Below, piece after piece: positions 4,084 to 34,144 of a stretch of DNA of 37,957 nt. The position numbers and the translations under genes are program-made. The stretch comes from a virus. The notes beneath the pieces were generated by a model. That model was not told the origin of the DNA and did no database searches. It saw only the letters and a list, made by a program, of their open reading frames with translations. Position 1 is the first letter of the stretch. Each line of letters starts with the position of its first letter. The DNA is taken from the IMG/VR virus record IMGVR_UViG_3300044712_000518, positions 1 to 37,957 of that record. The stretch is one strand, 5' to 3'.

Positions 4084-5028
4084 TCACGACTCCCACAACT
4101 CTTCCCAGCCGAACGTGTACCAGTACCCTGCGTTGCTGTTCACATAATACTTCAATTGTGAACTCACATTGCTATAAACCATAATATAGCCCGTGCTTGA
4201 CGATCCAGCCGTGTAATAAACAGAAGTCGTTGTCGAATCAGGATCAAACACAACAATGAAAGAAGCCGCGTTGTTTGCCTGGGCTGCCCCAATAACTGCC
4301 ACCTTTACCCCTAGCGGAACCGATACAGTGAATGCGGTGGCGCTGGTTTGTGTGCCAGCCGATAAATCTCCCACTACCGTCTTCCACATGAACCGATTCC
4401 CATGCTGGTAAAATGCCAGAATATTTCCACTCCCGTCAGTCTTCACCGCCCCTACCCTGCGCTTGTAGGTGTACCCTGTCGGCATGGTCGGCGCGGTGGC
4501 ACTGGTTGAAAATAGTGCATCCAGTGTACCATCTGTATTTTTTCGGATGATCCACACGTGGTACCAGGTGCTGTTCGCCTTGCTGCCAGTATCCAACCCG
4601 CCCTGATTGGTGCCTGCCGCCCATGCCGCATCCAGCCGCTTCGTGACTCCAGTTGTCAGTCGGAAGTTGAACACATCCGCGCTGTCTCTGCATGTCCCTG
4701 TTCCGATGTCGATGTCATTGTTCGCATCACTCGCATTGTTTGAAAGTTTGAACCCCTGCTTGAAAAGTGGAGGGAATGCCCCTTCCAGTGTTGACGATGA
4801 AAATCCGCTGGCGCTGGAAGCATTGTAAACCAGTGCCTTTCCGTCTTCGGCTGGTGGTAATTCGACGAATGTTCCCGGTCCCGTCCCCACCAACAGAGTC
4901 CCCTTCGCCGTGAAGTTGTTCGTCAGAATTCCAGCAGGGATATTGAACTGGGCGATCTTCACCCTGAGCACCGCCTGCTTCTTTACAGATACAGAATTGC
5001 CTTGTTTGGTCACCATAATAATGGTCAT
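4084..5028 (-). CDS. Tail fibre / receptor-binding protein
   Basis: A 314-residue virion protein. The N-terminal part (1-80) is beta-rich and probably attaches to the particle (VKIAQFNIPAGIL, LVGTGPGTFVELPP). Residues about 90-240 match the C-terminal pattern of many tail-fibre and tail-collar proteins: an NNDIDIGTG-type element, KRLDAAWAAGTNQGGLDTG, STWYHVWIIRKNTDGTLDALF, then APTMPTGYTYKRRVGAVKTD. The rest is beta-rich and aromatic and would form the distal tip. It is the last gene of the leftward late programme and its start overlaps the stop of the 117-residue gene by 4 bases, as expected for a host-recognition module at the 3' end. The receptor cannot be predicted. Confidence 0.75.
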   Translation of the reverse strand: MTIIMVTKQGNSVSVKKQAVLRVKIAQFNIPAGILTNNFTAKGTLLVGTGPGTFVELPPAEDGKALVYNASSASGFSSSTLEGAFPPLFKQGFKLSNNASDANNDIDIGTGTCRDSADVFNFRLTTGVTKRLDAAWAAGTNQGGLDTGSKANSTWYHVWIIRKNTDGTLDALFSTSATAPTMPTGYTYKRRVGAVKTDGSGNILAFYQHGNRFMWKTVVGDLSAGTQTSATAFTVSVPLGVKVAVIGAAQANNAASFIVVFDPDSTTTSVYYTAGSSSTGYIMVYSNVSSQLKYYVNSNAGYWYTFGWEELWES

Positions 5029-6017: not shown

Positions 6018-6029
6018 CTTCTTTCTCCT

Positions 6030-6076
6030 CCCCTCTCCAAACATGCTCTCCGTTTGGGGAGGGGCTGGGGGTGGGG
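6030..6076 (+). repeat. G/C hairpin repeat R2
   Basis: CCCCTCTCCAAAC and its partner GTTTGGGGAGGGG surround ATGCTCTCC, followed by CTGGGGGTGGGG. It lies just upstream of the 55-residue gene and supplies its Shine-Dalgarno flank. Confidence 0.85.
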
Positions 6077-6079
6077 CTG

Positions 6080-11951: not shown

Positions 11952-12953
11952 TTACGAGCCACTTGCCTGGGCGGTGATGCCATACACGCGGGCAATACAG
12001 CGCGGGCGGACGGTGTAGATGCCGAGAGGCCAGTCGATCACGTCGCGGTAGGTCACGCCGTCATTGAGCAAGCCCATATCCTTCACGTCCATGGCGTATT
12101 CCTGCGCGCCACCCAGTTGATCCTTGCCAAATTTCGCGGCGTAAATGCTGGTGCATCCATCGCCACCAGTCAGGGCGCTGCCGTCTGCGGCTTCGTCATG
12201 CCCGATGACTTTGGTACCAGGATCTTCGTCGGTCTCGTCGCGGTTGTAGCCCATCGGGACAAGAAGCACATTTCCATACTTCTTGTACTTCTTTCCGAGA
12301 TGGTCTTCCGTGGTCAGGTCAAGGCCGGAGAAGGTGAAGATGCTGTTGTATTTCATCATGGTCACGCGGTCCATCATCAGCGCGTCACAGTCGCCTTCAT
12401 TGCAGGCGTCCACCAATTCGTCGAGCAGGGTGATGGCTTTCACACGGGTGGCATTCACTGAGAGATCACCAGTCAGGTCGAGACCGTTGGCGTCGATGCT
12501 CTGGCTGGCGGGGTGCGCGTTCACAAGGCGGTAGTGCAAGCCAGTGAATCCGTCTTCATCGGTGGCGGGGTTGCCGTTGATGAAGTAATTGCGGAAGGTG
12601 CGCTTCATGGCAAGCAAATTCATTTCGCGTTCCCATGTGCGGCGATCCACGGGCTGGTTCTTGAGTTTCACAAGAGCCTTGTCCACGTCGATGTTCTGCC
12701 CCAAATGGAAGATGCGATCTTCCACGGTGCGGGTGTCGCCCTTGCTGGATAAATACGGGTTGCCCAGCTTGCGGAAGGATGGCTGGGGCATACTCTTGGC
12801 GCGGGTGAAGGTGATCTTCAAGTCGCCAGTGTCGGTCCACGGAAGTTTGTCCATCAGCGGGTCTTCACGAAACGCCTGGACAAATCCGAGTTTCAAACTG
12901 TCTTTCGATTCGACTGCGTTCTTTGCGTAGTCGGTAAGATATAGGGATGCCAT
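11952..12953 (-). CDS. Major capsid protein, HK97 fold
   Basis: A 333-residue protein in the position just after scaffold. It starts at an ATG with AAGAGG upstream. Features typical of HK97-type coat proteins in short-tailed phages include an N-terminal helical arm, DLKITFTRAKSMPQ, RRTWEREMNLLAMKRTFRNY (the long spine helix), FTGLHYRLVNAHPASQS, DALMMDRVTMMKYN and KKYKKYGNVLLVPMG. The C-terminus is VYGITAQASGS. It forms the icosahedral shell, and no cross-link motif is obvious. Confidence is high from gene order and pattern together. Confidence 0.85.
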   Translation of the reverse strand: MASLYLTDYAKNAVESKDSLKLGFVQAFREDPLMDKLPWTDTGDLKITFTRAKSMPQPSFRKLGNPYLSSKGDTRTVEDRIFHLGQNIDVDKALVKLKNQPVDRRTWEREMNLLAMKRTFRNYFINGNPATDEDGFTGLHYRLVNAHPASQSIDANGLDLTGDLSVNATRVKAITLLDELVDACNEGDCDALMMDRVTMMKYNSIFTFSGLDLTTEDHLGKKYKKYGNVLLVPMGYNRDETDEDPGTKVIGHDEAADGSALTGGDGCTSIYAAKFGKDQLGGAQEYAMDVKDMGLLNDGVTYRDVIDWPLGIYTVRPRCIARVYGITAQASGS

Positions 12954-13743: not shown

Positions 13744-14040
13744 ATGTCTGTCGGTCAATTTGGTATTTTCCTTCCGCTCCCCTCTCCCTCTTAGGAGAGG
13801 GGCTGGGGGTGAGGGTCGGTTTGTTGTAAAAATTATAGCACCATTTTTCTTCCTCGGTCCTTTCAGTGTCAGGTCTTGAACCATGTTCGTCAGGTCTTCC
13901 CTGCACCTTTCCAGCCGCTCGATCCTGACATATAACTCTCGTATCTTCGCCCTGGCTGACATCAATTCACCGAGTAGTTCATACTGACCATCCACGTCCA
14001 GCGGGATTCCTCTCTGTGTGTTCTGCAACTTATATGCCAT
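13723..14040 (-). CDS. Small coiled-coil protein, C-terminus replaced by repeat cassette
   Basis: A 105-residue ORF starting just after the stop of the giant gene (ATG 14040). Residues 10-60 form a helical, coiled-coil-like stretch (YELLGELMSARAKIRELYVR, then RIERLERCREDLTNMVQD). From about residue 62 onward the ORF runs through the -10-like box, the G/C repeat and into the terminator hairpin, so this part is repeat-derived. The core could be a small head-assembly factor. No family is recognised. Confidence 0.5.
   Translation of the reverse strand: MAYKLQNTQRGIPLDVDGQYELLGELMSARAKIRELYVRIERLERCREDLTNMVQDLTLKGPRKKNGAIIFTTNRPSPPAPLLRGRGERKENTKLTDRHRAGRTP
13779..13815 (+). repeat. G/C hairpin repeat R3
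   Basis: CCCCTCTCCCTCTTAGGAGAGGGG then CTGGGGGTGAGGG, part of the cassette between the terminator at 13700-13743 and the -10-like box at 13832-13837. Confidence 0.8.
13831..13843 (-). promoter_or_regulatory. Extended -10-like box of cassette A
   Basis: On the minus strand TGGTGCTATAATT contains an extended -10 (TGCTATAAT). The same 13 bases recur at 30665-30677. A transcript would run about 125 nt and end at the terminator at 13700-13743. No good -35 is present, as is usual for extended -10 promoters. It overlaps the end of the coiled-coil ORF. Confidence 0.45.
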
Positions 14041-14043
14041 AGG

Positions 14044-17000
14044 CTACTTCCCGTACATCATCCCAGGCACAACCTCCGAAGTCAGCCAACTCTTGAAGTC
14101 GCCCATCGGCATCCCCTCGTTGATCCAGACCTGCTCCAGCGCCTTCGATGCTCCGCTCGGTAGCTTGCCGCCTGTGAATGCGTAAGTCCTCACATAGTCT
14201 TCCAGCATGGGAGGCCACCCGCTGGTATCCACCTGCTTGAAGACCTGCCCGCCAAAGATCGGCTTATATTCTGGGTAGGCTTCGTACCATCCGTCCTTCC
14301 AGTCCCAATACTTTTTCAGGTCTGGATGTTCCGCCAAATAGCGCGCCTTCTCACCCTTCGTTGCCAGGTTGTAGTATCCCTGCTGGGTTTCGTAATAGTT
14401 CGGGAATAGCCGCGTGCGGTCCTCGAAGAACTTGTCGGTCACCTGTGTGATTGCAGGATCATACAAGTCCAGCTTCGGCGTCGTCGGCTTGTTCCCCTCT
14501 CCTCTCAGGGGAGGGGCCAGGGGTGGGGTCTTGCTGGGGGCCTTCGGCGTCATCTGCCCCAACATCTGCGCCCACTGGGTCAGGGTGTCGATGTCCAGCG
14601 TCTCATAACTGCGCGTCTCTTTGTCGAGAAACGACTGCTTGAACATCTCGCCCATCTGCGCCGATGCTTCCTTCTTGTTGGTTGTCCCCAATTCCATGTA
14701 TCCGTCCCATATCTGACCGATCAGGAATGACTTCAATCTCTCTTCTGGTTCCTTGCCCTTCGCCAGGTACGCTTCATACTCGGGGTGCATCTCGAAGAAG
14801 TTGTTGATGGCTTCCTTATCGCCCGCGTCGCGTCTCTTCCAGGCTTCGTTCCATTCCTCTTTCAAGCCTCGGTATTCCAGTTCACCCGCAGGCAATAGGC
14901 TTGCCCCAAAGAGACTCGGCAATGCTGCTGCCGCCCCTGCCATTGCGCCTTTGTTCAATCCAGCATACAGCGCCCCAGCCGTTGGCACACGCAAGGCCAG
15001 TTCCATCTTCACCCGCTCCTCGGCTTCGGTAAAGATGTCACCCTGCCGTTCGATCATGGCGATCTGCGCCTGCTCCGAGTCGATCTTTCCTTCTGCCACC
15101 ATGTTGGCGATCTGTCGGTCGATGTAATAATCTCCATACTCGCCGAACTCAGGGATGCCCAGCTTCTTCTTCAACATTTCTTCTGGCTTTCCGATCAGCC
15201 CAATCAGGTCGCCCACGGGTTGCGCCCATGTGCCTTGTGTCACGGTGTCAATTGCCCGTGCTGTGTTCGCCAGTGGGGTGCTGGTGACCTCGTTTGCCTT
15301 GCCGCTTGCCAGTTTGTAGGGGGTGGTCAAATACCAGGCTGGTCCGAACATGGTATTCATGAAGTCCACGGGGTTGTTCACTTCGCTCTCGCGTCTCTGT
15401 TGTGCTTCGGCGAAGGCGCGTTCGTAGATGGTCCCGCTTCTTGTCTGTGCGGCTTTTATGATGTCGGCTTCCGAGTACTTCCCGTCTGCCGTCCATTCCT
15501 GCAAGATGCGTTCGGCTTCGATCTGCTGATAGGTGTGCTGCTGGGTCATGCGATCAAAGGGCTTCAACAGGCTGGCGGGTGGGAACAGACTCCCAATCGG
15601 GTCAATGTACAATCCGTCACCCATCCAATCGGGTAACCAGGGGGCGTTGATCTTGATCTTGCCGCGCAGTCTCTCGGGGATGTCCCGTTCATAGCGGTTC
15701 TGTTGGTTGTGCAGGCGGGCGTAGTTCGAGAAGATGGCGGGCTTATCCAGTGCGCGCATCGCCCAGTTGACCATCGTCCTGGTTTGGTAGAACTGGTAGG
15801 GGTAAACGGTCTCTGCCACTCGGTCGAACCCGTACCGCTTGCTGTAGTTGAGCATGGCAAAGTCGCGCTTCTGTTCTGCGTGTCGGATGGTCGCCAGTTT
15901 GGTGGTCGCCATTTCGCCCTGCACCTTCTTCATGTATTGCCTGAGTGCCTTCTGCCCTTCTGGACCTATGTCTCGGCTGGCTCCATCCAGTGGCTTCTCG
16001 CCCAGTTGGTTGATCGCTGCTTCTTCCATGTTCTTCAAGAGCGGTTCCACACTCTGCGCCCAGCCCTGATCCATTACCTCGCTTTGCGGTTGGAACTGAC
16101 TGGCGGCATCATACGATCCGTGCTGCTGGTCGGCTTCCTGGAAGAGGGTATCCACCTTCGGCGCTTCGTACATTCCTGCCTTCATCCGCTGGAGTTTGTT
16201 CATGGTCTGGTCTGGACGAGACTCATAGGCTGCCCTGTATTGGTCAGCCTGTGCCCTTGTCACTGGCTGCATGAGTTTCTCCACCTGCCCTTCGTAGGGT
16301 GTGCCTCCCTTGCGTGTGATCTCCGCTTCCACTGCCGCCCGCACGTTGGGGTTTCTGTACTGTGCGTATTCCGCAAGCAGGGCATCGTTCTCCATCAATG
16401 CCTTCATGATCTTGGGCTTCGTGTACTCTTCTTTGCTCATGCCAAAGGGCTGACCATATTTACTATAGGCGTAATCCTCGAAGGACATCTTCGGGATCTC
16501 CACCTGTGTCAATGCCGATGGGGCTGGCTGCTCTCCTGGCTTGACCACGTGGCTGACCTTCTCGCCGCTCTTCATCTTCTTCCCCAACTGGCGCAGTCTT
16601 TCGGTGTCTATGGCTGCGGCTGTCTGCTGGCTTTTCTCTGCGTCCACCTTTATTTCAAGGTCGCCGCGTTTCAGAATGTCGCCATAGTCCCCGATGTAAT
16701 ATTCCTTCGGGTCGTAGCCCATGCCTTCCATCAGGCTGTTCAAGTCCACCTTTAGGTTGTCGGCTCCCAGCATTCGGTCGAAGACTCTCCGCACATCGTC
16801 ACTGACTTTCACGTCGATGGCGCTGCCCGTGATGGCTTTGTACACGTCCAACATCCACGTGCGGATCATCTCGAAGGCTTTGTTCAGTTTCGGCAGGGGG
16901 GCTTTGCCCGTGGTGACGTAGTTCTCGAACCCGCGTGCAAACTTCTCCTCCGCCGCCCGATCCCAGCTTCCATCCTTCACACCCGCCCATTCTTCCACGG

Positions 17001-20000
17001 TCCGCAGGTCGTGCTTGATCTGCATGTTCCCCGTCCGCTCTGCCACATCCTCCAGCACACGGCGGAACACATGCCCATTCTCATGGACAAGGGTCGTAAA
17101 GTCTGCCGATTCAAAGGCGGTAATGCTGGCTTTGATCCCGTCTGCCCCAAACTTCACCATCCCCTTAGCGGTTCCGCTTGTCTGGTAAAGTGCCCCGCGT
17201 TCGTTTGTCTTCGCTGTGTCAAACAAACCACTGAACGCTTCCACCACTGGCTGCATTTCATTCTCCAGCAAATACGGATACCGCCCAGGGTCACGCGAGA
17301 ATTCTTCAATGCCTGCCACGTTTGCAAGGTAATCATTCTGATAGCCTTCCTGTGCCATCTTGAAGATCGTATAGTTCTCGAACGAACGTGCCGCCCGCTC
17401 TATCACCCTGCTCCAGTACCCGTCACCCTTGCCCTTGTCGATCAATGCTGCCCGCTTTGCCATTGGTGAGTCATCCAGCGCCTTCACCAGTTTCGTGAAA
17501 GCCTCTGCCATTTCTGGACGCACCCCCTCCACCTTTGCCCAGTCTGCCGGGTTGCGGATTCCGTTCTTCTCTTTGAGATAATTGAAGCGGGTTTCAGATA
17601 GCCGCTCTCCCTTCGGGCTTTGGTAATAGGTCTCAGGTTGGTAGGTAATGTAACTGCCTTCACGCCCAACGGCTGCCCCGCGTTTCCGTTGGAAGTAATT
17701 GTCCAGCGCATGGAACCATTCATGTGCAAGAGATCCCGCCCCGCGTGTCTTGGTCAGGTTGATGACGATGTTGTCTGTCTCGTAGTGTGCCGCTGCGTTT
17801 CCGCTTCCGCGTGATCCGAGTCCCAGTCCAAGAGTCCCATCCAGTGAGATCGCCTTGGGGGGAATGTTCGTAATATCCGCCAGGTCCATCAGTGCGTCAT
17901 AGGCGGCGTTCAACATTCCCTGTCTCTCCTTCATGTTCCCGCCCTGTGAAACCCAGTTGCCGAACTCCACACCCCTGAACCCAAAGGAGTCCATGAACAT
18001 TTCAGGCGTCGCTTCCTTTCCCTTTCGGTAATCCTTTCCAGTCCTTGGCGCATTCTCCGCCCGTCTAACGTCAGTTTCTTTTACGTTGTCGCTTTCCTTC
18101 ACACCTTCCCATGCCTGCACCAGGTCGGCGCGGTTCTCTTTGATAAACGCGAACGCTTCCTTCTCGTTGTCAAATTCCTTCAATCTCCGATAAAGCGGGT
18201 CGCCTGCTTTGTTGATAAACATCTTCCCGTCGCGTCCCACTCTCACTTCAAACTTCATGGTGGCGGTGGCGGGCTTCACTTCTCCGCCTAATTTCTCCAG
18301 CACTGCGCTGGTCAATTCGTCGAAGTTTGTGGTGTGAATGGTTTTCCCGTCCACCTCTGCCACGGCATAAGGCTTGGCAACTTTCTGCCCGTCCTTGTAG
18401 GTATATGCTTCTGGATAGTAGCGCACTTCCCCAACCCTGCCCCACTTCTCACGTGGTAGCTGGCTCAGTAATTCAGTCTTTGATACGAACCCTTCCAGTC
18501 CCACCCTTGCCCGTGCGCCTGATAGAACTGCACCCACACCCTTTTCATTGGCTACCTTGATTAGCCCCTGCACTTGCTTTACCTGCTCCACCCATCGCTT
18601 CAACTTCCAACTATCTCGCGGTTTGGTCGGGATCGAATCGCGGATGGCTTGGGTCATCGCTGCCAGGCTCACATCTTCGATGTTATCCACAATAGACTTG
18701 GGGAATATCTCAGACAGCTTCATCCGTGCAATGTCGCCATCACTATACTCCACCATCTGCACCGCTGCCTTATCCTTCCGTGCTCCCCCAAGTTTCTCAC
18801 CGAAGTCAGTCAGTTTTCCCGTTGTGTTAGGTGTGGTTTGCACCTTCAACAATTCCTGCTGCTGTGGGGCTGTGTCTACTTTTGGTGCTTCAACCAATTC
18901 GGGCTGTTGTGGTGCTGTCGCTGCCTCTTGTTTTACTTCCTCGATCTTGCTGAATAAATCCAATTGGCGCGCTCCAACAGGCGCAAACATATCAAGCTGC
19001 GCCTCCTGGAACAATATATCCATCTCCCCGCGTGCCACTCCCTCCGCCATTTTCGCATCAAGTTTGTGGGCTTCGTCAAGTATGGCAATGCGGTCTGCCT
19101 TGTTCGCCTCGTTGCGGATCGCGTTTCTCAGTTCCCCTTCCCCGCCCCTCACCAGCATCCGCGCATAGTTCTCCGCGTCTGCCGGGGTCATGGTTCTTTC
19201 CGCTACTTCGATGCGGTTGTACGATTGCTTGAGTCCCTCTATCGGGTTGGTGTCGCCGCTGTCCGCCCGTTCCACATCCGCATAGTATCTTGTGTAGAAC
19301 TCGTCGGGGTTCTCTCCCGTCTGCCTGCTCACCCATCCAGCCAGTGAGTCGCTCAGTTCCATGTAGGCGTCGGCTTGCTGGTCGTTGAGTTTGAAGGCTT
19401 CCTGAAACTTCTCACGCATCAACTGGCGGGTGGTCACTGCTTCGGCGCGTGTCTGCTGCTGGGCAATGGCTTGCTCTGCGCGTGTGGCGTTCTCTGCCGC
19501 CTTCTGGTATAAGGTGCTCTCCTCCACCTTGGCGGCTGTCTCGTCTGCCATGCGACTCATGTAGGCGTCCCACTCTTCTCCGCTGGGTGCCAGGGTCTTG
19601 TTCAGTTCCTCGGGAAAGTCACCGATCAGTTCATACATGCGGTTCAGGTCGCCGCCCTGGGTGGCTGCTGTAAAATCGTCCTGCCATTTGAGCATGTCGA
19701 TGTTCTGGAAGTCGAACGAGTCGTCGAAGGCTCTCACCGCTGCCTCGGTCTGCGCTTTGGCAAGGGAGGCTTCATAGTCATGGGCAACTGGGTACACCTT
19801 GTCCCCGGTGCGGGCGCGGTTTATCAGGGCGGTGGTCTGTGCCACTCCGCCTATATCGTTCGGGTCGTTTAGGTCAATCGGATATCCTTCGTCTGTCAAT
19901 AGGCGGGCGATCTCATCGATGCCCCTGCCCTTGCGCGTGAACACTCCAGGCGCGGTCTTCGGTCTTGCCTCGCCCGTGATGTCCTTTGCCATGCCCAACT

Positions 20001-23000
20001 GTAGCCCGCCCAGTTCTGAGATGGCTTTCAGGATGGTGGTGTTCTCGTTGATCCTCGGTGCCTTGGCGTTGGCTGCTGCCTGGTCTGCCCGTATCACTGC
20101 GGACTCCACCTGCTGTACTGCCGCTTGTTCTTTCACTGCCTGTCTGCGGTCGAGGATTTCCTTCACCAGTTCAGGTGTCAGGCGCGGATCGCTCAGTCCT
20201 GAAAGGTCTTCCACTCCACCGTATTCGGTTTTACGCAGGGCATTCATCAGGGCAAACTTATCCTGTAGGATGGTGCGGTCATACGCCAGCCCTTCGCGTG
20301 CGTAACTCTCCGCCACATCCCACACAGATTTCATTCGATCCGCTGCCCCCTTTGCCTCTTCCGCCTTCCGCTGCTCTGCCGCTTTCATCATGGCGTTGAA
20401 CTCTTCCACGCGGTCAAGCTGCTGCTGTTTCTTCTTCGCCTCGGCACTGGCAATCGTGCGCGCACTCTGCTGGTCAGGCGTCACTTCTCCCCCCAAATTG
20501 CTCTCTATTTGGGGGGATGTCTGCGAAGCAGACAGGGGGGCTGGGCTTGGGTTTGGTGACTGTGGACTCCCACCCTGTCCTTCGTTACTCGTCCCGCCGC
20601 CCTTCTTGATGACCCGCTCCAGCCGTGCGATTCCCTCGCCATTGATGCGGTCGGCTTCCACGATCATCCCCACCTTGTCCTTGCTGTAATACTCCTGTTT
20701 GGCAATGTCGCGCTGATCCTTGGTCATTCCTTCCAGGCTGTTACGGAAGTCACGCTCACGCTGAACGATCTCATCATTGAACCTGGTCACTTCCTCGAAC
20801 CATTGGCGCGCTGCCTCCCCTGCTGCTGGGCTGTACATCTTCTCATAAATTCCAGCCAATGCTTCACCCTGCCGCACTTCTGCCGCGTGTTTGTCTTTGA
20901 ATGCCTTCTTGAACAGGGCGTCGATCTTGTTATTGTTCGCGTCCCATTCGTCCCAGCGGGCGGGGTTGTCGAAGTCGTCCCGCCACTTGTCAAAGAATCC
21001 CCTGCGGATCTCGCGCATCTGTGTATATGCCCCGCTCATGGATGTGTCCACGTCGCCGATGGCTGCCAGCATTTTGATGGCGTCGGGGTTTTGGCTCATG
21101 CCCCATGCTTCAAAGATACCCTGATAGTTTGCGGCATGGCGGGCGTACACCCTGCGGAATTCCTCGTCGCTCTGTTGGTAGTTCAGTTCAATGGCTTTGC
21201 TGCGCTGGGCGGGGTCGTCCAATAATTGCAGGTCGTTCATCACTTCGCCGAAGCGTGCATAATGGTCAAGCCAGGTGTCGGTGAATGCGGCATTGGCTTT
21301 CTGTGCCACGTCCAGGGCGGTGGTGGCTCCCTCCAGTCCCACCTTCTGCTTGACTGATTCGGCAATGGCTTTCAGGTCTTCGCCCGTCTGCATGTCTGCC
21401 CAATCCTGCGCCTGCTTTCGTGCCTTCTGGAATGCTGCCCGTACCCCGTCCGCGTCTGTCCTGCCTTTCAGATGGTTATCCAACACATCGAGGATGCCGA
21501 TCTGGTCCAGCATGGTAGCCGCCTGTCCTGCGCTCATGCCTGTCTTCTGTGCCGCATCGTTCACAAGACTCCGCGCCTGCACTCCTTCAAACCGTCCGAA
21601 GAGTGCGCGTTCGATCTCGCCCTGGTTCATGCCTGCTTCAATGGCTGCATAGATTCGGTCTGGTTTTACGCCTAGCGCATTGATCGCCTGTGTTAGTTCG
21701 GGTGTCATCTTCGAGAAGCCCACTCCCCGCCGCCAACTCTCTGACCAGAATTGTTTCATGCCGATGGCGAATGCCTGTTTGCTTTCGCTTGCCTCGAACC
21801 AACTGGATAGCTTGCTGAATGGCATCCCCTTCGAGAGTTTGCCCAGTGCGTTCTTCGCATTGGTCAACGCTCCCTTGCCCTTCATTGCCTCGTCCATTGC
21901 GCTGGTCACCACCCCACTCTTGCCCGCTGCCATTTCAACCTGTCCGCCAATACCCACCCCTTCTTCCAGACGTGCAGGTGCTACGCCCATGCGGTCCATG
22001 AAGCTGTTGATCTGGTTCGGTGTCAGGTAGCCATAGATACCCGTGGCTGCGCGGTGGACCATGTTGCTCAGTCCGTTGGTGATGGCGTACCCAGGACTCC
22101 CACCCAAGAGTAGGATGGATTGTGCCTGCTTCATCAGTGCGGTGGTGCGGAAGAATGCGCTGGTGGCTTCGGGGCTTTTGTCGAGCATCAATCTCTTGGT
22201 CACCCACTCATCGAAGTGTGTGCCCAAAGTATCCAACATCTGCGCCTTCCACTGTGCTGGGTGCCAGGGTAGCGCGCCGTCACCAGTAAAAACGTCAACT
22301 GTCTGCTTCAAGGTGTCGGCTGTGAACTTGCCAGCTTCAATGTCTGCCAGCATTCCCTTTGCTTGTGGGTCTGTGCTCTGTCGTAGGCGTTCCACGATGC
22401 GGGCATAGTCCTGTTGTGCGGTTCCGTTCTTTGCCAGGTCGTCGAGCAGGCGGGCGGGTTCCTCTCCTAAAATGTTGGAGAGGGTGGTCAGCATGTCGCG
22501 GTTGGTGGCGCTGATCTCCCATGCCTGTGTGATGCCTTGTAGCTTCTCGGTAGCAAAGTCTTTCAGGGCTGGGAGGATGGTATAAAACTCGGGGCTGTCG
22601 GCAAACTTGCTGCCCAATGCGCTCCAGGTTTCGTTGTCACCTTTGGCAATGGCGTTCAGGTATTTGCCCGCGTCTTCGGGGGTGTCGAACATGGTCAGCA
22701 TTGCCCCGATGTTTTCATAGAACATGCCCGCCCCAGTCTGTGCCCTGCTGTGTGGGGTTTGGCTGGTCATGTTTTCGAGGAAGCCTGTCTTGTTCTTCAC
22801 GGAGTCGAGTAGTCCCATGTTGCTGGGGATGAGACTCCCCGCCCTTACTGCTCCGTTGCTGTTGATCCCTGCAATAAAGCGCGAGAATGCACCCATCTGA
22901 TCCACCTTGAACTTCGGGTCGATGGTCATGGCTTGCCCTGTCTGCACCAGGGTCTTGTATGTTTTCGCGGCTTCGAGTGGCGACTCAGATAACTTGAAGG

Positions 23001-24402
23001 CTTCGGCTGCCACGTTGTGCCCCGTTGCCTCTGCGACCTTTGCCCCGATGGTGGTCTCTGCTTTGGGTAGCACGTTCAACGGGTCGGCAATACCCTGCCC
23101 TGCCATGTCTCCGATCTGTGCCATGATGCCCGTCTGCATTTCAGACATGACCTCACGTTCGTTTCTGCCGTTCTTGATTTCGTTCCTTGCCTGGTCCAGT
23201 CTTTCGACCCACGTCTTTTCAAGTTCTGCGGGCATCGATGCGCCAAGGTAGATTTCCTCTCCCTTGTATTGTTCTGGATTGCGGACGATATCCAGCAACA
23301 CGTCACCATAGAACAGGGTCGGTAGCAATCGCTTGGCATCGTTCCAGTCCAGCCGTCCCTTTCCTTCCTGCATCCTCGCCTGAATTGCAGGCGCGATCAC
23401 TTCAAAGAAACTGGCTCCAGCGTTCCATGTTGCCTTCGTGGTTTGCTTATCCTTGAACAGGTCAGCTACATTTTTGTTTGGGTCAACCGCCGCATTCGCC
23501 GCTTGTGCTGCTGTGCCGATGGTCTTCTCTGCCTGCTCTGCTGCCCAGTTCATCAAGCCCATGCCAGCGTTGACAGTATCCTTCACCTGCTGCTTGTCCC
23601 AGGTCAACTTCTTGTCGCCCTGCTGCCACCATTCCTTATTCTGGTCGTAGCCCCCCCATCCTGCTGCTGCTCCAAGTGCTGCCCCTAATACTGCCCCGCC
23701 TGGATTTCCTCCTCCCATGATTCCGCCTTGGATTGCTCCCATTACAGCGGGTCGGCTGCTTGCGTTGAAGTATGCTTGTTGCCAGTTGATGCCCGTGTCT
23801 ATCCCCGCCACTTTTAGATTCGGAAGTTTATCCCATTGGAAGTTCGGGTCGGCAAGTATCTGCTGCTGTATCTCTGGCGAGTACTTGGTGATCTGGTTGT
23901 TCTTGTAGAAGTTCGGGTCGGCAAGCATCGCTTCCCTGTCACTCACTGACTGGTCAGTCCATAATGCTTGCCCACCCGTCACATCTTCATTCGTGGCGAA
24001 CTTCGGGGTCTGCACCACCACGGGGGCTTCGTTCACATCCCTGCGTCCGATGCTCATCCCTGCTAAATTTCCAGTCTGCGCCGTCATTCCCTGCTGGGGT
24101 GCGCGTGCAGGGGTGAACTGTTTTACCAGTAATCCGTTGTCGTTGATGGCATATCCAGACGGCACCCCTCGGTTTTTCTGTAGCCGCTGTTGAAGTTGAA
24201 ACGACTCCATAGATCGCTGATCCTGCTGACGGAATGCCTGCTGTGGGGTGAATCCAGGCGGCAGTGTATTCACAGTCACCCCCCTCGACTGCATGTTGTT
24301 CACTGTCGGCATGTTCTGGTTCGGTTGCCCTTGCTGCTGCTGGTCACGTTGTTGTCGTTGTCGTCTTACTTCTTCCGCGAGACTGGCTTGATTTAGACTC
24401 AT
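14044..24402 (-). CDS. Giant polyvalent protein with two zincin metalloprotease modules (LPD1-like, MuF-slot)
   Basis: A 3452-residue protein, 27% of the genome, starting at ATG 24402 with GAGGA upstream. Order: a Gln-rich disordered N-terminus; a glycine-zipper, membrane-active segment (about 219-255, IQGGIMGGGNPGGAVLGAALG); a second hydrophobic stretch near 760 (SILLLGGSPGYAITNGLS); long helical regions; a repeat-derived insert near 1285; two clamp-like motifs, QLDMF (1802-1806) and QLDLF (1813-1817); an LPD1-like module (FGFRGVEFGNW at about 2137, with SLDGTLGLGLGSRGSGNAAAH) ending in zincin HEWFHALD (HExxH 2227-2231); a second zincin, HENGH (2440-2444); further helical domains; and a C-terminal segment near 3006 (NPVDFMNTMFGPAWYLTTPY) like polyvalent-protein C-termini. 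It follows the portal operon where MuF head-morphogenesis genes usually lie, so ejection with the DNA and proteolysis in the host are likely. There is no tape-measure pattern. Confidence 0.85.
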   Translation of the reverse strand: MSLNQASLAEEVRRQRQQRDQQQQGQPNQNMPTVNNMQSRGVTVNTLPPGFTPQQAFRQQDQRSMESFQLQQRLQKNRGVPSGYAINDNGLLVKQFTPARAPQQGMTAQTGNLAGMSIGRRDVNEAPVVVQTPKFATNEDVTGGQALWTDQSVSDREAMLADPNFYKNNQITKYSPEIQQQILADPNFQWDKLPNLKVAGIDTGINWQQAYFNASSRPAVMGAIQGGIMGGGNPGGAVLGAALGAAAGWGGYDQNKEWWQQGDKKLTWDKQQVKDTVNAGMGLMNWAAEQAEKTIGTAAQAANAAVDPNKNVADLFKDKQTTKATWNAGASFFEVIAPAIQARMQEGKGRLDWNDAKRLLPTLFYGDVLLDIVRNPEQYKGEEIYLGASMPAELEKTWVERLDQARNEIKNGRNEREVMSEMQTGIMAQIGDMAGQGIADPLNVLPKAETTIGAKVAEATGHNVAAEAFKLSESPLEAAKTYKTLVQTGQAMTIDPKFKVDQMGAFSRFIAGINSNGAVRAGSLIPSNMGLLDSVKNKTGFLENMTSQTPHSRAQTGAGMFYENIGAMLTMFDTPEDAGKYLNAIAKGDNETWSALGSKFADSPEFYTILPALKDFATEKLQGITQAWEISATNRDMLTTLSNILGEEPARLLDDLAKNGTAQQDYARIVERLRQSTDPQAKGMLADIEAGKFTADTLKQTVDVFTGDGALPWHPAQWKAQMLDTLGTHFDEWVTKRLMLDKSPEATSAFFRTTALMKQAQSILLLGGSPGYAITNGLSNMVHRAATGIYGYLTPNQINSFMDRMGVAPARLEEGVGIGGQVEMAAGKSGVVTSAMDEAMKGKGALTNAKNALGKLSKGMPFSKLSSWFEASESKQAFAIGMKQFWSESWRRGVGFSKMTPELTQAINALGVKPDRIYAAIEAGMNQGEIERALFGRFEGVQARSLVNDAAQKTGMSAGQAATMLDQIGILDVLDNHLKGRTDADGVRAAFQKARKQAQDWADMQTGEDLKAIAESVKQKVGLEGATTALDVAQKANAAFTDTWLDHYARFGEVMNDLQLLDDPAQRSKAIELNYQQSDEEFRRVYARHAANYQGIFEAWGMSQNPDAIKMLAAIGDVDTSMSGAYTQMREIRRGFFDKWRDDFDNPARWDEWDANNNKIDALFKKAFKDKHAAEVRQGEALAGIYEKMYSPAAGEAARQWFEEVTRFNDEIVQRERDFRNSLEGMTKDQRDIAKQEYYSKDKVGMIVEADRINGEGIARLERVIKKGGGTSNEGQGGSPQSPNPSPAPLSASQTSPQIESNLGGEVTPDQQSARTIASAEAKKKQQQLDRVEEFNAMMKAAEQRKAEEAKGAADRMKSVWDVAESYAREGLAYDRTILQDKFALMNALRKTEYGGVEDLSGLSDPRLTPELVKEILDRRQAVKEQAAVQQVESAVIRADQAAANAKAPRINENTTILKAISELGGLQLGMAKDITGEARPKTAPGVFTRKGRGIDEIARLLTDEGYPIDLNDPNDIGGVAQTTALINRARTGDKVYPVAHDYEASLAKAQTEAAVRAFDDSFDFQNIDMLKWQDDFTAATQGGDLNRMYELIGDFPEELNKTLAPSGEEWDAYMSRMADETAAKVEESTLYQKAAENATRAEQAIAQQQTRAEAVTTRQLMREKFQEAFKLNDQQADAYMELSDSLAGWVSRQTGENPDEFYTRYYADVERADSGDTNPIEGLKQSYNRIEVAERTMTPADAENYARMLVRGGEGELRNAIRNEANKADRIAILDEAHKLDAKMAEGVARGEMDILFQEAQLDMFAPVGARQLDLFSKIEEVKQEAATAPQQPELVEAPKVDTAPQQQELLKVQTTPNTTGKLTDFGEKLGGARKDKAAVQMVEYSDGDIARMKLSEIFPKSIVDNIEDVSLAAMTQAIRDSIPTKPRDSWKLKRWVEQVKQVQGLIKVANEKGVGAVLSGARARVGLEGFVSKTELLSQLPREKWGRVGEVRYYPEAYTYKDGQKVAKPYAVAEVDGKTIHTTNFDELTSAVLEKLGGEVKPATATMKFEVRVGRDGKMFINKAGDPLYRRLKEFDNEKEAFAFIKENRADLVQAWEGVKESDNVKETDVRRAENAPRTGKDYRKGKEATPEMFMDSFGFRGVEFGNWVSQGGNMKERQGMLNAAYDALMDLADITNIPPKAISLDGTLGLGLGSRGSGNAAAHYETDNIVINLTKTRGAGSLAHEWFHALDNYFQRKRGAAVGREGSYITYQPETYYQSPKGERLSETRFNYLKEKNGIRNPADWAKVEGVRPEMAEAFTKLVKALDDSPMAKRAALIDKGKGDGYWSRVIERAARSFENYTIFKMAQEGYQNDYLANVAGIEEFSRDPGRYPYLLENEMQPVVEAFSGLFDTAKTNERGALYQTSGTAKGMVKFGADGIKASITAFESADFTTLVHENGHVFRRVLEDVAERTGNMQIKHDLRTVEEWAGVKDGSWDRAAEEKFARGFENYVTTGKAPLPKLNKAFEMIRTWMLDVYKAITGSAIDVKVSDDVRRVFDRMLGADNLKVDLNSLMEGMGYDPKEYYIGDYGDILKRGDLEIKVDAEKSQQTAAAIDTERLRQLGKKMKSGEKVSHVVKPGEQPAPSALTQVEIPKMSFEDYAYSKYGQPFGMSKEEYTKPKIMKALMENDALLAEYAQYRNPNVRAAVEAEITRKGGTPYEGQVEKLMQPVTRAQADQYRAAYESRPDQTMNKLQRMKAGMYEAPKVDTLFQEADQQHGSYDAASQFQPQSEVMDQGWAQSVEPLLKNMEEAAINQLGEKPLDGASRDIGPEGQKALRQYMKKVQGEMATTKLATIRHAEQKRDFAMLNYSKRYGFDRVAETVYPYQFYQTRTMVNWAMRALDKPAIFSNYARLHNQQNRYERDIPERLRGKIKINAPWLPDWMGDGLYIDPIGSLFPPASLLKPFDRMTQQHTYQQIEAERILQEWTADGKYSEADIIKAAQTRSGTIYERAFAEAQQRRESEVNNPVDFMNTMFGPAWYLTTPYKLASGKANEVTSTPLANTARAIDTVTQGTWAQPVGDLIGLIGKPEEMLKKKLGIPEFGEYGDYYIDRQIANMVAEGKIDSEQAQIAMIERQGDIFTEAEERVKMELALRVPTAGALYAGLNKGAMAGAAAALPSLFGASLLPAGELEYRGLKEEWNEAWKRRDAGDKEAINNFFEMHPEYEAYLAKGKEPEERLKSFLIGQIWDGYMELGTTNKKEASAQMGEMFKQSFLDKETRSYETLDIDTLTQWAQMLGQMTPKAPSKTPPLAPPLRGEGNKPTTPKLDLYDPAITQVTDKFFEDRTRLFPNYYETQQGYYNLATKGEKARYLAEHPDLKKYWDWKDGWYEAYPEYKPIFGGQVFKQVDTSGWPPMLEDYVRTYAFTGGKLPSGASKALEQVWINEGMPMGDFKSWLTSEVVPGMMYGK
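14494..14529 (+). repeat. G/C hairpin repeat R4, inside the giant gene
   Basis: CCCCTCTCCTCTCAGGGGAGGGG then CCAGGGGTGGGG. It is in frame and encodes PPLAPPLRGEG in a linker near residue 3290, so the element can insert into coding sequence without a stop. Confidence 0.8.
18952..18999 (-). other. Region encoding tandem beta-clamp-like motifs QLDMF and QLDLF
   Basis: QLDMF is encoded at 18985-18999 and QLDLF at 18952-18966, 6 residues apart in the giant protein. Both fit the beta sliding clamp consensus QL[SD]LF and sit in a linker between domains, where such motifs act. Confidence 0.6.
20488..20550 (+). repeat. Variant G/C hairpin repeat R5, in frame in the giant gene
   Basis: CTCCCCCCAAAT pairs with ATTTGGGGGGAT, followed by the mini hairpin GTCTGCGAAGCAGAC and CAGGGGGG. 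It encodes a Ser/Pro/Gln-rich linker near residue 1285. It is related to but different from the R1-R4 type. Confidence 0.7.
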
Positions 24403-25524: not shown

Positions 25525-27315
25525 CTATCTCCTCTGGCTTGTCGGGATCATGGCGTCAGTCTTCGGTTGTGTCTCCATTCCTGGCTGCCCCTGCATCTGT
25601 GCCATTTGTTCCATCATCGCGGGGTCTGGCATTCCTCCGCCCTGAGCGATAGCCGAAGGGTCAGGCGGCATCCCATTTTGGGAAGGCATCCCCTCGGGCA
25701 TCACATCTTGGGAAGGTGGACTCGCTGGGGCTGGGGCTGGGGGTGGTGTCGGCTTCTGTCCCATCGCTGCCATCAGCATCGGCTTCATCAGTTCAGGGTT
25801 CGCAAGTATCTGCTGCACAATCGCGGCACGGAAGTCTTCCTTCGTCTTGGCTTTGAACATCTCCTCGCTGTTGGGGATCTTCAAGATGTGCGTGTTCATC
25901 CATTCGTTGCTGATGTTGGTGTTCGCGGCTTTGAGGTTGGTCACTACCTGGGCATTGCGTAGATCGTCCTGTGTCAGGTTCGGCTCCAGCGTGACTTCCA
26001 GTTCAATGTCATCGGGGATGTCGTTCGGGGAGATCAGTGTATTATCGATGCCCTCCGCCTTGATCCGTTTCAGGATGTACAGCATGGCGTCCCTGAATGC
26101 CATGGCAATCCCTTCCTTCGGGTCTTCGGCTGGCAACTTGCTGGCGTTCATGCTGGTCACGTACCCGCTGAATGTGCTGTTGTCGGCTCCCGCTCCAAAG
26201 GCTTCGGGCTTGATCGTGCTGCTGCTGTTGGTGGTATCCATCAACTGTTTCAACTGCAACACGTCGCCGTCGATCACCTGAATGTTTTCCAGCTTGCCTT
26301 TTGCCGTGATGATCTTCACGCCCTGGTCATACTTTACGGTCAATTCGCTGGTGTCTTCGGGGTCTTTCACCAGTGTCGGTCCAGGTAATCCCTGCATGAA
26401 GATGGCAGTGAACAGGTAAGTCCAGAACAGGTTCTCGCGTTTGTCCCATTCGCCTTTCGCCTTGGCATACAGGAAGGGATGAAGCTGGCGTTCGGGTTCG
26501 TACCATAGGCTGCTGCCGCCACCGAAGCGCACGAATACGGGCAACTGCGCCACATCGTCGCTGTCCAGGTCAACCCAGGTATCAGCAAACAGTTCACCAG
26601 TCACACCTTCCGCCCAGGTCAGGCGCTTGTCGTAGTGGAAGAAGTCATAAACGGTATATTTTCCGTCCGTCTTCACGTTTGCATCCTGGCATCCCCATCG
26701 TTCTTTCAGCACGTTGCCCCTCACTTCGTACTTGCGCAGGTGTCCGATCAGTCCGAGTTCTCCCCATTCGGGATAGCTTTGGGCGGGGTTCACAGTGCCG
26801 ATCAGGAAGGGCGTGCGTTTCTTCAAGTCTTCCAGCTGGCGCACCACGAACTTGTTGACGTTCTCTTTGTCGTTGCCTTCGCCGTCCTTTGTCTTGGCGG
26901 TGATCAGATCGTCCACGCTTTCCACGGTCAGCACGCTCATGCCATACAGCACAGAAGCCAGGTTCTCATCCTTCTCCACGCTGGCAATCCGCCGCTCATT
27001 GCTCACTCTCAGGATGGTCTTCAATGCGGCTTCGATATCGTTTGCTTTGGGTACGTTGTCCTTGTCCTTGATCTTGATCTGTATCTCGCCCGTGTCCAGA
27101 ATGCGCTTGAGTCCAGTCACGTCATTCCTGCCTTGCGGGGAGATGGTGATCTTCATGTCGTTCGGGTCAACGTCCAGCCCCTTCGGTTTCTCTGCATTGT
27201 CCATGAAGTAGATTTCTTCATAGCGTTTGCACATCTCTTTGTAGGGTCCGTACATGGTCACCAGCCCAGTCGCCAGGGCTTTCATGTCACTGATTTCTTG
27301 GGGGGTTAGGGTCAT
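25525..27315 (-). CDS. Portal protein
   Basis: A 596-residue protein in the order TerS-TerL-portal. Its start overlaps the TerL stop by 4 bases. The N-terminal domain (about 1-200) and wing/clip region (about 200-430, including WYEPERQLHPFLYAKAKGEW and NLFWTYLFTAIFMQGL) follow the portal layout, with a long helix (FRDAMLYILKRIKAEGI) before the crown. The C-terminus (about 520-596) is Pro/Met/Gln-rich and disordered and contains a diverged copy of the second repeat family. It forms the dodecameric DNA channel. Family pattern plus gene order give good confidence. Confidence 0.85.
   Translation of the reverse strand: MTLTPQEISDMKALATGLVTMYGPYKEMCKRYEEIYFMDNAEKPKGLDVDPNDMKITISPQGRNDVTGLKRILDTGEIQIKIKDKDNVPKANDIEAALKTILRVSNERRIASVEKDENLASVLYGMSVLTVESVDDLITAKTKDGEGNDKENVNKFVVRQLEDLKKRTPFLIGTVNPAQSYPEWGELGLIGHLRKYEVRGNVLKERWGCQDANVKTDGKYTVYDFFHYDKRLTWAEGVTGELFADTWVDLDSDDVAQLPVFVRFGGGSSLWYEPERQLHPFLYAKAKGEWDKRENLFWTYLFTAIFMQGLPGPTLVKDPEDTSELTVKYDQGVKIITAKGKLENIQVIDGDVLQLKQLMDTTNSSSTIKPEAFGAGADNSTFSGYVTSMNASKLPAEDPKEGIAMAFRDAMLYILKRIKAEGIDNTLISPNDIPDDIELEVTLEPNLTQDDLRNAQVVTNLKAANTNISNEWMNTHILKIPNSEEMFKAKTKEDFRAAIVQQILANPELMKPMLMAAMGQKPTPPPAPAPASPPSQDVMPEGMPSQNGMPPDPSAIAQGGGMPDPAMMEQMAQMQGQPGMETQPKTDAMIPTSQRR
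25641..25660 (+). repeat. CCTGAGCG-CGAAGGG family repeat, copy 2
   Basis: CCTGAGCGATAGCCGAAGGG in the Pro/Met-rich tail of the portal gene, in the same orientation as the copy at 37390. Confidence 0.65.
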
Positions 27316-28877
27316 ATCGCTCTTCTTCCTTGCGCGGGGTGGGTTGCTGCCTTACCCTGCGGCTTGTTCTCTGGTTGTTTGAGGTTGGTCAGTAGATACT
27401 TCAACATGTCAAAGGCATCATCACCTTCGACCTTCTTCACATCTTCGGCATCCTTGCCCATCATTGCATCTTCACAGACCAGGGTTTCCATGCACTCGAA
27501 CACGTCATAATATTGCTCGAAGACTTGTAGCATGGGTTTTGTTTCCCCTCCCTGGTTTGGGTCGGGTCCTTCTTCGGCTAGCAGTCTGTCTATCTTGCGG
27601 ATGCCGTTGATGCGGTCGTTGTCGGCGAGGGTCAGAATGATTCCGTGTTCTTTGTATTCGTCCACGCTGGTCTGAACTTTCGCGCTTTTCTTTGCGGTCT
27701 TTGCCCACATGTCGGGGCTGGCAAATGTGACCGTGATCCTTTCGTCGGGCGGGGTCATGTCGCCGATCATCTCTGCCTGGGCTGCGTCGTATAGTTCCTG
27801 TGCTTCCACTGCTCGGTATATGTAAACCCGTCCTGTGCCTGGGTCTTTGGTTGCCCACCCCACAACCATCGGATGCTTATACCCATAGTCCAATGCCCGC
27901 CACTTTGCCCAATGGCTGGGGATGGGGAAGGGCTTGCAGGTCATCCGCTCTTTGATCCATGTCGGGAATCTCTGCCCAGCAAACACGCTCCAGTCGCCAT
28001 ATCTCAATGCCTTTGCCACGGCTTGGCTGCGCTTCATCAGTCGGCTTTCATACTCGGGGTCTGCTGCGTTGCCGATGCCGTTGTCTTCGAGGAAGGCGGG
28101 AATGAAGTAAACCTTCTCTCTCTGACCGTTCTTGTTCATCACTTCCTTGACCGTGTTGTGATCCCCCAGCTTCTTCTCCATGTCGAATTCCTGGCTATAC
28201 CATTGGTGTCCGATGTTGCCGGGGTTGGTCAGTAACAGGGTGAACGGTTTGAATCCCTGCTCTTTGATCTCGCCGCTGGCACGGTTACGGGTTTGCAAAT
28301 AGTCAACGATGAACCAGGTAAAACTTGTAGCTTCATCTACGATCAGGATGTCGGGCTGGCTGCCCTGATAACTGTACACATCGGCTTCACGCTGGCAATG
28401 GCGAAGGTAGAAGGTGCTGCCGTTCGGGAAGTTCCATTCCTTGCCGCCATCCCTGTCTCTGGCAATCCCTCCAAATATTCCCCTTGCCTTTGGGATGATC
28501 GCGCCTGCCCCTCCCAATTCTGAGTAAGTGCGACGGTAGAAAACAGACTGGCATCCCGGCCACAATTGGCTTGCAATGTTGACCAGTGTCAGCGCGCCGT
28601 AACTCTTGCCACCATAAGCCGCGCCACCATAGCCTATGATCCCTGCTGCTGCTGCCCGCTTCTCTCCCGTTGCCCGCCACATCGGTACCATCTGCCCATA
28701 AAACTCGTGTTCCCCTGCTGGCTGGCAGGGGAATCCACATGCTTCAAGTAACCTGGCTTGCTTCTCCTGCACCAGCGGGAAGGCTTGCGGGTTCGTCTCT
28801 TCTGGCATCAATCCGCTGAGGAATAATTCCAGTGAGTTCACGGATAAAATTCCTTCGGGTGTTTGTATCAGGGACAT
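27312..28877 (-). CDS. terL: Large terminase subunit (ATPase/nuclease)
   Basis: A 521-residue packaging motor. Walker A is GYGGAAYGGKS (82-92, K91), Walker B is DILIVDEAT (D181, E182) and coupling motif LLLTNPG follows. The C-terminal RNase H-like nuclease has conserved acidic residues in RALDYGYK, FASPDMW and DDAFDMLKYLL. The start overlaps the small terminase gene by 134 bases. ATG 28877 has a GGAG-type site, while ATG 28808 would leave an overlap of only 65. Both motif sets are complete, so it should be active. The packaging mode cannot be read from the sequence. Confidence 0.95.
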   Translation of the reverse strand: MSLIQTPEGILSVNSLELFLSGLMPEETNPQAFPLVQEKQARLLEACGFPCQPAGEHEFYGQMVPMWRATGEKRAAAAGIIGYGGAAYGGKSYGALTLVNIASQLWPGCQSVFYRRTYSELGGAGAIIPKARGIFGGIARDRDGGKEWNFPNGSTFYLRHCQREADVYSYQGSQPDILIVDEATSFTWFIVDYLQTRNRASGEIKEQGFKPFTLLLTNPGNIGHQWYSQEFDMEKKLGDHNTVKEVMNKNGQREKVYFIPAFLEDNGIGNAADPEYESRLMKRSQAVAKALRYGDWSVFAGQRFPTWIKERMTCKPFPIPSHWAKWRALDYGYKHPMVVGWATKDPGTGRVYIYRAVEAQELYDAAQAEMIGDMTPPDERITVTFASPDMWAKTAKKSAKVQTSVDEYKEHGIILTLADNDRINGIRKIDRLLAEEGPDPNQGGETKPMLQVFEQYYDVFECMETLVCEDAMMGKDAEDVKKVEGDDAFDMLKYLLTNLKQPENKPQGKAATHPAQGRRAI

Positions 28878-30575: not shown

Positions 30576-30603
30576 CTATGTCTGTCGGGCTTGGTTATGT
30601 TTT

Positions 30604-30650
30604 CCCCTCCCTAAACGTGCCCTCCGTTTGGGGAGGGGTCAGGGGTGGGG
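30604..30650 (+). repeat. G/C hairpin repeat R6
   Basis: CCCCTCCCTAAAC pairs with GTTTGGGGAGGGG (one mismatch), followed by TCAGGGGTGGGG. It lies between the terminator and the -10-like box in cassette B. Confidence 0.85.
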
Positions 30651-30664
30651 CTGTTGTCGCTTGA

Positions 30665-33577: not shown

Positions 33578-34144
33578 TTATGGGGTGGCGGAGAATGTAA
33601 CCACCCACACCCACGGGTTCACATCCCAGCCGAATCCGCGCTTTTCGTTGATGGAATCCCACAATGCGCCGAACATACCTACCGGCGTATCGTCCCCCGA
33701 CATCCACACATCGAGACTGTTTTCGTCGACTCCTTCTGCCTTTGCGTCTGTCTCGCTGATATCTTGCACCCGTTCCACCCGCACATCCATAACCTTCAAT
33801 GTGATGCGGCTTGCCCAACGCGGCATGAAGATAGAAGGCTTCCACTTGTAATATCCACCATTCGGATATTTTTCAGAAGCACGGTAGACAATATCAATTC
33901 CGTGGTGTGGCAGGTCAGAAATTTTTACCCCATCCCAATTTCCAGAAACTGCCCATGTCTCGCGCACCCACAGATGATCTCCTGGCTGACCGTACTTGCT
34001 ATTCTGAATAAACCATTCAGGTTCATCTTCTGGACTACGGCACAATTGCAACTTAGATGGGATCACTCTCCGCGTCTGTGTCTTGCGTCCTTCGAGGATC
34101 GCCCGCACCATCGGCGCGGAAAATAATATTGGATGCGTGTTCAT
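33578..34144 (-). CDS. ASCH domain protein
   Basis: A 188-residue protein. Residues 4-30 (ILFSAPMVRAILEGRKTQTR) and GDHLWVRETWAV, then YKWKPSIFMPRWASRITLKV and VERVQDISETDAKAEGVDEN follow the phage ASCH pattern. ASCH domains adopt a PUA-like fold and bind or hydrolyse nucleic acid or modified nucleotides. Its start overlaps the stop of the DUF5131 gene by 4 bases, a pairing seen in other phages. A nucleic-acid-related role is likely but the target is unknown. Confidence 0.85.
   Translation of the reverse strand: MNTHPILFSAPMVRAILEGRKTQTRRVIPSKLQLCRSPEDEPEWFIQNSKYGQPGDHLWVRETWAVSGNWDGVKISDLPHHGIDIVYRASEKYPNGGYYKWKPSIFMPRWASRITLKVMDVRVERVQDISETDAKAEGVDENSLDVWMSGDDTPVGMFGALWDSINEKRGFGWDVNPWVWVVTFSATP

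Follow-up and report, generated by a model that had tools for sequence, protein, structure and literature searches.

This locus raises the question of why a giant phage protein should carry, within a single linker, two short peptides resembling the motifs that dock on the bacterial beta sliding clamp, DnaN. The window, by which we mean the whole 37,957-nucleotide stretch analysed (IMG/VR virus record IMGVR_UViG_3300044712_000518), encodes this protein on its minus strand. The original prediction had described two such motifs six residues apart, and we recovered both, at residues 1802-1806 and 1813-1817. The linker and its motifs are as follows:

14044..24402, minus strand: giant polyvalent protein of 3452 aa (ORF; Pfam LPD5 and LPD1; PHROG 616 and others)
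18817..19005, minus strand: linker from the upstream helical part to the cassette, residues 1800-1862 (low pLDDT)
18985..18999, minus strand: QLDMF, clamp-binding-like motif 1, residues 1802-1806 (sequence match)
18952..18966, minus strand: QLDLF, clamp-binding-like motif 2, residues 1813-1817 (fits QL[SD]LF)
18847..18861, minus strand: QQELL, a weaker third candidate in the same linker as the pair, residues 1848-1852

According to the available part of PMC12309361, the beta-clamp consensus is QL[S/D]LF or, more generally, QxxLF, and its most important positions are 1, 4 and 5; the consensus is also found in the available part of PMC9690074. Both peptides have Q at position 1, an aliphatic residue at position 4, F at position 5 where F or L is expected, and D at position 3, where S or D is preferred. 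The earlier statement that both fit QL[SD]LF holds strictly for QLDLF alone; QLDMF, with Met at position 4, belongs to the looser QxxLF class, as does QADMF of E. coli Pol III alpha. They are the only matches to Q..[LM]F in the 3452-aa protein, and permitting I at position 4 adds just one more, QGDIF at 3120. The spacer between them is APVGAR (six residues), and their codons (CAG CTT GAT ATG TTT for QLDMF, CAA TTG GAT TTA TTC for QLDLF) differ synonymously at Q, the first L and F, so that the pair does not resemble a recent duplication at the DNA level. When residues 1777-1862, a region picked post hoc, were shuffled, a pair of Q.[DSN][LMI]F copies no more than 20 residues apart arose once in 200,000 trials and a Q..[LMI]F pair 60 times in 200,000. 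Under local shuffling of the whole protein a Q.[DSN][LMI]F pair arose in 4 of 20,000 trials and a single copy in 15%. A 117-aa linker query (residues 1735-1851) found no credible relative among phage records (best E 3).

Downstream of the linker lies a cassette of recognizable domains, followed by a second zincin-like site:

17191..18816, minus strand: LPD5 / HExxH peptidase / LPD1 cassette, residues 1863-2404
17989..18423, minus strand: LPD5 (PF18799), residues 1994-2138 (Pfam E 1.6e-16)
17710..17724, minus strand: HEWFH, zinc metallopeptidase signature, residues 2227-2231
17203..17439, minus strand: LPD1 (PF18796), residues 2322-2400 (Pfam E 1.3e-10)
17071..17085, minus strand: HENGH, second zincin-like site, residues 2440-2444

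With LPD5 and LPD1 both scoring above the Pfam cut-offs and two HExxH sites in one large protein, this is a polyvalent protein of the LPD type, a class of large effectors from phages and plasmids in which most LPD domains have no known function or target. It resembles the LPD polyvalent proteins of Iyer et al. 2017 (PMC5512222) in being a multi-domain giant with LPD5, LPD1 and HExxH, encoded among virion genes; its gene lies between those for the terminase (27312-28877) and the major head protein (11952-12953), which we note as context only. Homology to LPD5 proteins of phages and plasmids begins at about residues 1833-1863, immediately after the motif pair. HEWFH sits between LPD5 and LPD1; among 109 nonredundant blocks of at least 450 aa drawn from the lists of the best 80 relatives, 106 share the form HE[WYF][FWY]H. 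A single-sequence scan of residues 1635-2501 against viral contigs returned no relative, and a profile search of solved structures no credible match.

To place the motifs relative to folded domains, we used a structure model of residues 1690-2420 (30-row alignment, mean pLDDT 80.2). The pair, residues 113-117 and 124-128 of the model, falls among its least certain parts: mean pLDDT is 46 for model block 111-120 and 44 for block 121-130, against more than 85 for most of the cassette, and the stretch is placed midway along a low-confidence helix (105-139). The alignment has almost no depth at the motif columns, so disorder is no more than weakly indicated by these values. In the model the pair is outside the confidently folded cassette, and nothing points to burial in a predicted domain, which the original prediction had named as a finding that would count against it. 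As for the cassette itself, Foldseek alone gave no match at E <= 0.001. When its matches were realigned with VIA-align, model residues ~418-719 aligned with gluzincin-type metalloproteases at middling scores (Z of at most 9.7; thermolysin, 5.9). The peptidase call therefore rests on the HExxH motif together with these middling Z values, and we describe the cassette as a predicted HExxH metallopeptidase with a gluzincin-like fold, metallopeptidase-like in the model.

Next, we looked for relatives of the whole protein and found eight IMG/VR contigs. The N-terminal part of the protein recovered L009, with 57% identity over the best segment, and the C-terminal part recovered L010-L016, with 39-61% over theirs; two of these seven, L011 and L014, have ORFs truncated at the 5' end. 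The QLDMF/QLDLF pair was absent from all eight. A cassette profile of 28 blocks matched the window and a further contig, L017, and at E 10 it had no match in any of the eight relatives. Absence from close homologues had been named in advance as a result that would tell against the motifs, and the pair is indeed missing from these eight; they are, however, proteins without the cassette, so the comparison covers cassette-less proteins, and where the cassette is present the motif class is enriched (see below). The HENGH region is common to cassette-less relatives such as L009, and the sequence ahead of it varies. In L009 and L015 just a short stretch bridges the slot that separates a domain ending in AHKL from the HExGH region, in L010, L011 and L013 a different sequence precedes HExGH, and no HExGH was seen in L012, L014 or L016. 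From this comparison we infer that the motifs may have arrived with the cassette, or arisen beside it, in a variable slot. Two of the relatives have other peptides of this general form: QESLF and QTTLF twelve residues apart in a different linker of L015, and QMGLF at 476 in L009.

We then asked whether similar motifs recur ahead of the cassette in other proteins. A search with a six-block alignment (A1) provided the best 80 of 471 viral relatives and the best 80 of 420 genome relatives, and these 160 loci were reduced to 111 nonredundant ones (less than 10% shared 6-mers), 109 of them with a linker of at least 40 aa. Here the linker is the sequence of up to 200 aa upstream of the LPD5 block; a ddrB-like domain was masked in it and the window was excluded from the counts. 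Inspection of these linkers by eye showed many Q.[DS][LMI]F peptides, and at that point Q.[DSN][LMI]F was adopted as the pattern to count. In the 109 linkers (21,310 aa) it occurred 21 times, in 18 linkers, against 0.69 +- 0.78 in 300 shuffles (maximum 3). Replacing the first residue by N, E, A or G gave 2, 1, 1 and 0 matches, respectively. For replication with the pattern fixed beforehand, a different alignment (A6) was used, some of whose query blocks came from motif-bearing proteins but which contains no linker; once relatives of the first set had been taken out, the best 80 of at least 554 relatives left 24 new loci, 23 of them with a linker. Six copies were found in six of these 23 linkers (4,600 aa), against 0.10 expected (maximum 2 in 1000), and five in the 70,008 aa of the same proteins outside the linker. 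Pooled over these best-80 lists, 24 of 132 linkers hold 27 copies against ~0.8 expected. The motif class thus recurs beyond chance at the linker position and its distribution there is non-random.

The copies are not all independent. By the rough pattern GQx[DSN][LMI]F, 13 of the 27 lie in what we call a GQ-tail, a class that accounts for four of the six replication matches and is also common in the first set; the remaining 14 lie elsewhere and are partly related to one another (L119 with L122, L083 with L195). Our judgement is that the linker motif had about ten independent origins. Position 2 is L in only one of the 27 copies, so that the linker copies fit QxxLF rather than QLxLF.

Counts were also made on a wider scale. 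Whole proteins of the first set (111; 327,358 aa) contain 38 copies, against 11.9 +- 3.6 in 100 local shuffles (maximum 23), which corresponds to 11.6 per 100k residues in the polyvalent proteins against 3.05 in 512 neighbouring predicted proteins (5 copies in 163,843 aa); versions beginning with E, K, N, R or T were about equally frequent in the two groups. With position 3 left unconstrained, the residues most often found there in whole proteins were D (19), S (10), G (10) and N (9). In disorder-like stretches there were 30 matches with Q first, or 3.61 per 1000 Q, and values of 0-1.8 for other first residues except F (4.6); 28 of the 35 F.[DSN][LMI]F matches in whole proteins come from the end of LPD1. 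A gap of 1 from Q to [DSN][LMI]F is the favoured spacing in these stretches, with 30 matches against 10, 6 and 7 for gaps of 0, 2 and 3. Pairs of Q.[DSNEG][LMI]F no more than 30 residues apart occur in four of the 111 proteins (L119, L120, L122 and L147), against 0.09 expected (maximum 2 of 200). The protein most alike in its cassette, that of L017 (65%), has QESMF 9 aa before the block and QGNMF at -102. We also observed clamp-like motifs in a row before the LPD5 block of L119, L120 and L122, contigs titled Elusimicrobium or Elusimicrobiales, which read QENLFDMQQSLF, QGGLFDNQLELF and QENLFNLQRGLF.

The motif is far from universal. In the best-80 lists, 108 of 132 linkers lack Q.[DSN][LMI]F, and among the proteins most alike in the cassette, L018, L019, L020 and L023 have no copy anywhere in the available ORF. 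Of eight named records that were inspected but kept out of the counts (L001-L008), none shows Q[LMIV].[LMI]F within 120 aa upstream of the block, and three of these proteins start at the block itself. QKKLF lies 16 aa upstream of the block in L002, which also has QVDIF in another part, and QADLL occurs in the linker of L003. Partial loss can be followed in the LTGS tails, where 24 of 34 distinct tails carry Q.[DSNGE][LMIV][FL] and the other ten comprise eight with Q.ELA (a single lineage in which F was lost), one with QQDLM and one that is cut off. Nine further loci were picked by a motif-independent DNA pattern, and seven of their eight distinct tails have the motif, the eighth being cut off; L187 contributes no separate tail, and L180 and L186 lie on the same contigs as L047 and L090, so this evidence is not wholly new.

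A second home of such peptides is the ddrB-like domain, in which Q is retained in 23 of 25 distinct matches and the position-5 F in 12 of 25. Phage P1 DdrB, described in the available parts of the sources as a head protein (PMC9024508) that is cleaved prior to packaging (PMC5512222), has QGDMF at residues 355-359 (L179:4543-7530, minus strand) and QNAIF at 257, and in a model of L060 the equivalent of the former, QTDLF, is found in a loop after a helix. Since the P1 peptide lies in a conserved domain and its Q is kept more widely than its F, it is a candidate only; it would make an easy E. coli case if the loop is exposed. P1 DarB was dropped as an E. coli test case because the motif is absent from it. 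Two other ideas about the motif's surroundings were rejected: L[FY]Q as a mark of module borders (65 occurrences against 65.9 in shuffles), and membership in a methylase-helicase module, neither domain of which is among the Pfam domains of the tail-bearing L125 (ddrB-ParB, LPD5, LPD1 and LPD38).

What, then, might the pair in the window do? We think it reasonably probable that it is a docking tag for the host's beta sliding clamp, a putative function read from sequence. The clamp is near universal in bacteria. An identical 127-base direct repeat at both ends of the record (1-127 and 37831-37957) suggests that the record is a complete genome, though it could be an assembly overlap; no DnaN domain and no family A polymerase, the two replication functions searched for, were found in it, and the phage therefore probably relies on the host replisome. 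The pentapeptides would dock in the peptide cleft of host DnaN, presumably including the clamp of this phage's own host. The protein would enter the cell with the DNA, as its polyvalent family suggests, and a flexible tether directly upstream of the cassette that the sampled relatives lack would carry both motifs and hold the cassette, or the whole protein, on DNA-loaded clamps, i.e. on replicating DNA. Two copies six residues apart could raise affinity through rebinding; they are, we assume from clamp geometry, too close together to occupy both sites of one ring.

Reported affinities are in keeping with such docking but vary with the host. For peptides of the Pol III alpha motif and its variants, the available text of PMC12309361 cites KD values on E. 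coli DnaN of 0.8 uM (QADMF) and ~6.9 nM (QLDLF); the same text puts the tightest E. coli motifs generally at 200-400 nM, at odds with the value for QLDLF, and QLSLF on B. subtilis DnaN at 3.8 uM. QLDLF of the window is identical to the tight variant, while QLDMF is one change from QLDLF and one from QADMF. Like bacterial clamp motifs, the pair lies, in the shallow-alignment model, outside a confidently folded domain; unlike them, it belongs to a polyvalent protein of a phage and not to an enzyme of replication or repair, and consists of two copies six residues apart that are internal, not C-terminal. Overall, the clamp reading of the original prediction draws partial support from the position outside the confidently folded cassette, from the enrichment of the class in cassette linkers and from the tight binding cited for QLDLF (PMC12309361, available part), and is weakened by the absence of the pair from all eight whole-protein relatives, which also lack the cassette.

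A more ambitious version is that the docking peptide brings an injected HExxH protease to clamps, where it cuts host proteins at or near forks. We consider such a clamp-tethered phage metallopeptidase improbable, and the same low weight attaches to the targets that it might have near the fork (defence nucleases, repair proteins or blocking proteins). It would be, in logic, a viral counterpart of SPRTN, which combines HEXXH with a PIP box (PMC9240642, available part), an analogy that we likewise offer as a speculative and improbable one. The resemblance to that protein, a HExxH protease plus a clamp-docking peptide, is one of logic, with no claim of membership in a family characterised by an SprT-like domain, a PIP box and UBZ, and SPRTN is eukaryotic and its PIP box binds a different clamp, PCNA.

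Binding to the clamp could instead serve to occupy it, sequestering DnaN and thereby slowing host replication or displacing clamp clients. The available parts of the literature hold precedents, since the toxin SocB employs the usual clamp-binding motif (PMC9690074) and Twort gp168 and G1 gp240 target DnaN and stop host replication (PMC3594737), the latter two being precedents in outcome; two copies, one of them in the tight form QLDLF (PMC12309361, in the part cited above), would also suit competition for the clamp. The window motif shares with these three a prospective target in host DnaN, but they apparently have no enzyme cassette, as far as the cited text goes, whereas the window motif is appended to one and is no stand-alone inhibitor. 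The few copies borne by a virion also seem insufficient to titrate the clamp, and we regard sequestration as unlikely. Equally unlikely, in our estimate, is recognition of Q.[DSN][LMI]F by another partner altogether, such as a capsid protein, the terminase or a different host protein. The statistics establish a recurrent motif and not the identity of its partner, and the first 30 residues of P1 DarB send a reporter to the capsid (PMC9024508, available part), so short packaging signals do exist in the polyvalent class. Yet the general clamp consensus accommodates the motif, which, going by record titles, occurs in contigs of Bacteroidales (L142), Elusimicrobium or Elusimicrobiales (L119, L122), Burkholderiaceae (L125), Gastranaerophilales (L132) and the Parcubacteria group (L134), and there is no need for the phages of such different bacteria to have a capsid protein in common.

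Finally, part of the signal may be structural or inherited, reflecting a conserved Q.D[LMI] that ends helical tails, namely the GQ-tail and that of the ddrB-like domain, without clamp function, with the window pair a chance product of a linker rich in Q, D and L. The wider retention of Q than of F in the ddrB-like domain (23 against 12 of 25), the Q.ELA lineage of tails and the ddrB-like segment of L125, where QLDM and LDLF are spaced much as in the window, all point this way. The ddrB-like domain was masked in the linker counts, however, and 14 of the 27 copies lie outside the GQ-tail; in the window itself, the regional shuffles produced such a pair once in 200,000 and the giant protein has no match to the ddrB profile at E 0.01. 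This we hold to be the least probable of the explanations considered, and docking on host DnaN remains our preferred reading.

What is new here is a known motif in a protein class for which we found no such report, placed upstream of a metallopeptidase-like cassette. A literature search (titles and abstract openings, with subscription journals mostly outside its reach) returned no report of clamp motifs in polyvalent proteins, and the main text of PMC5512222 does not contain the word 'clamp'. The closest parallel among mobile elements is with IS transposases, which also carry a clamp-docking peptide in varying context and whose motifs bind clamps from distant species (PMC4549789, available part); the window protein is no transposase, and its motif precedes a peptidase cassette instead of standing at the C-terminus as theirs does. 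If docking on DnaN is correct, polyvalent proteins would be another class of mobile-element protein, after transposases, to converge on the host clamp. It would also give one polyvalent class a cellular site of action, and the LPD5 / peptidase cassette its first address, and is testable by a standard peptide assay.

Several other features of the window deserve mention. Five dispersed G+C-rich repeats are present (1508-1558, 6029-6079, 13767-13817, 25689-25739 and 30603-30653), four of which are 61-86% identical to the reference copy. The relative L009 has LTPTLSQRERG and SPSPQPSP stretches, one of them in the slot held in the window by the LPD5 cassette, and these resemble what translated copies of window-type G+C-rich repeats would look like. 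At 4084-5028 (minus strand) there is a weak match, below the cut-off, to the second domain of Mtd (PF21916, E 3.1e-4), the major tropism determinant of phage BPP-1 according to that Pfam family; no reverse transcriptase was found among the subset of window ORFs that was scanned with Pfam. The window also encodes a DUF5131 / PHROG 2045 protein at 34141-35211 (minus strand; E 1.7e-64 and 3.5e-72) and a serine recombinase (PF07508, PF00239) at 2256-3713 (plus strand).
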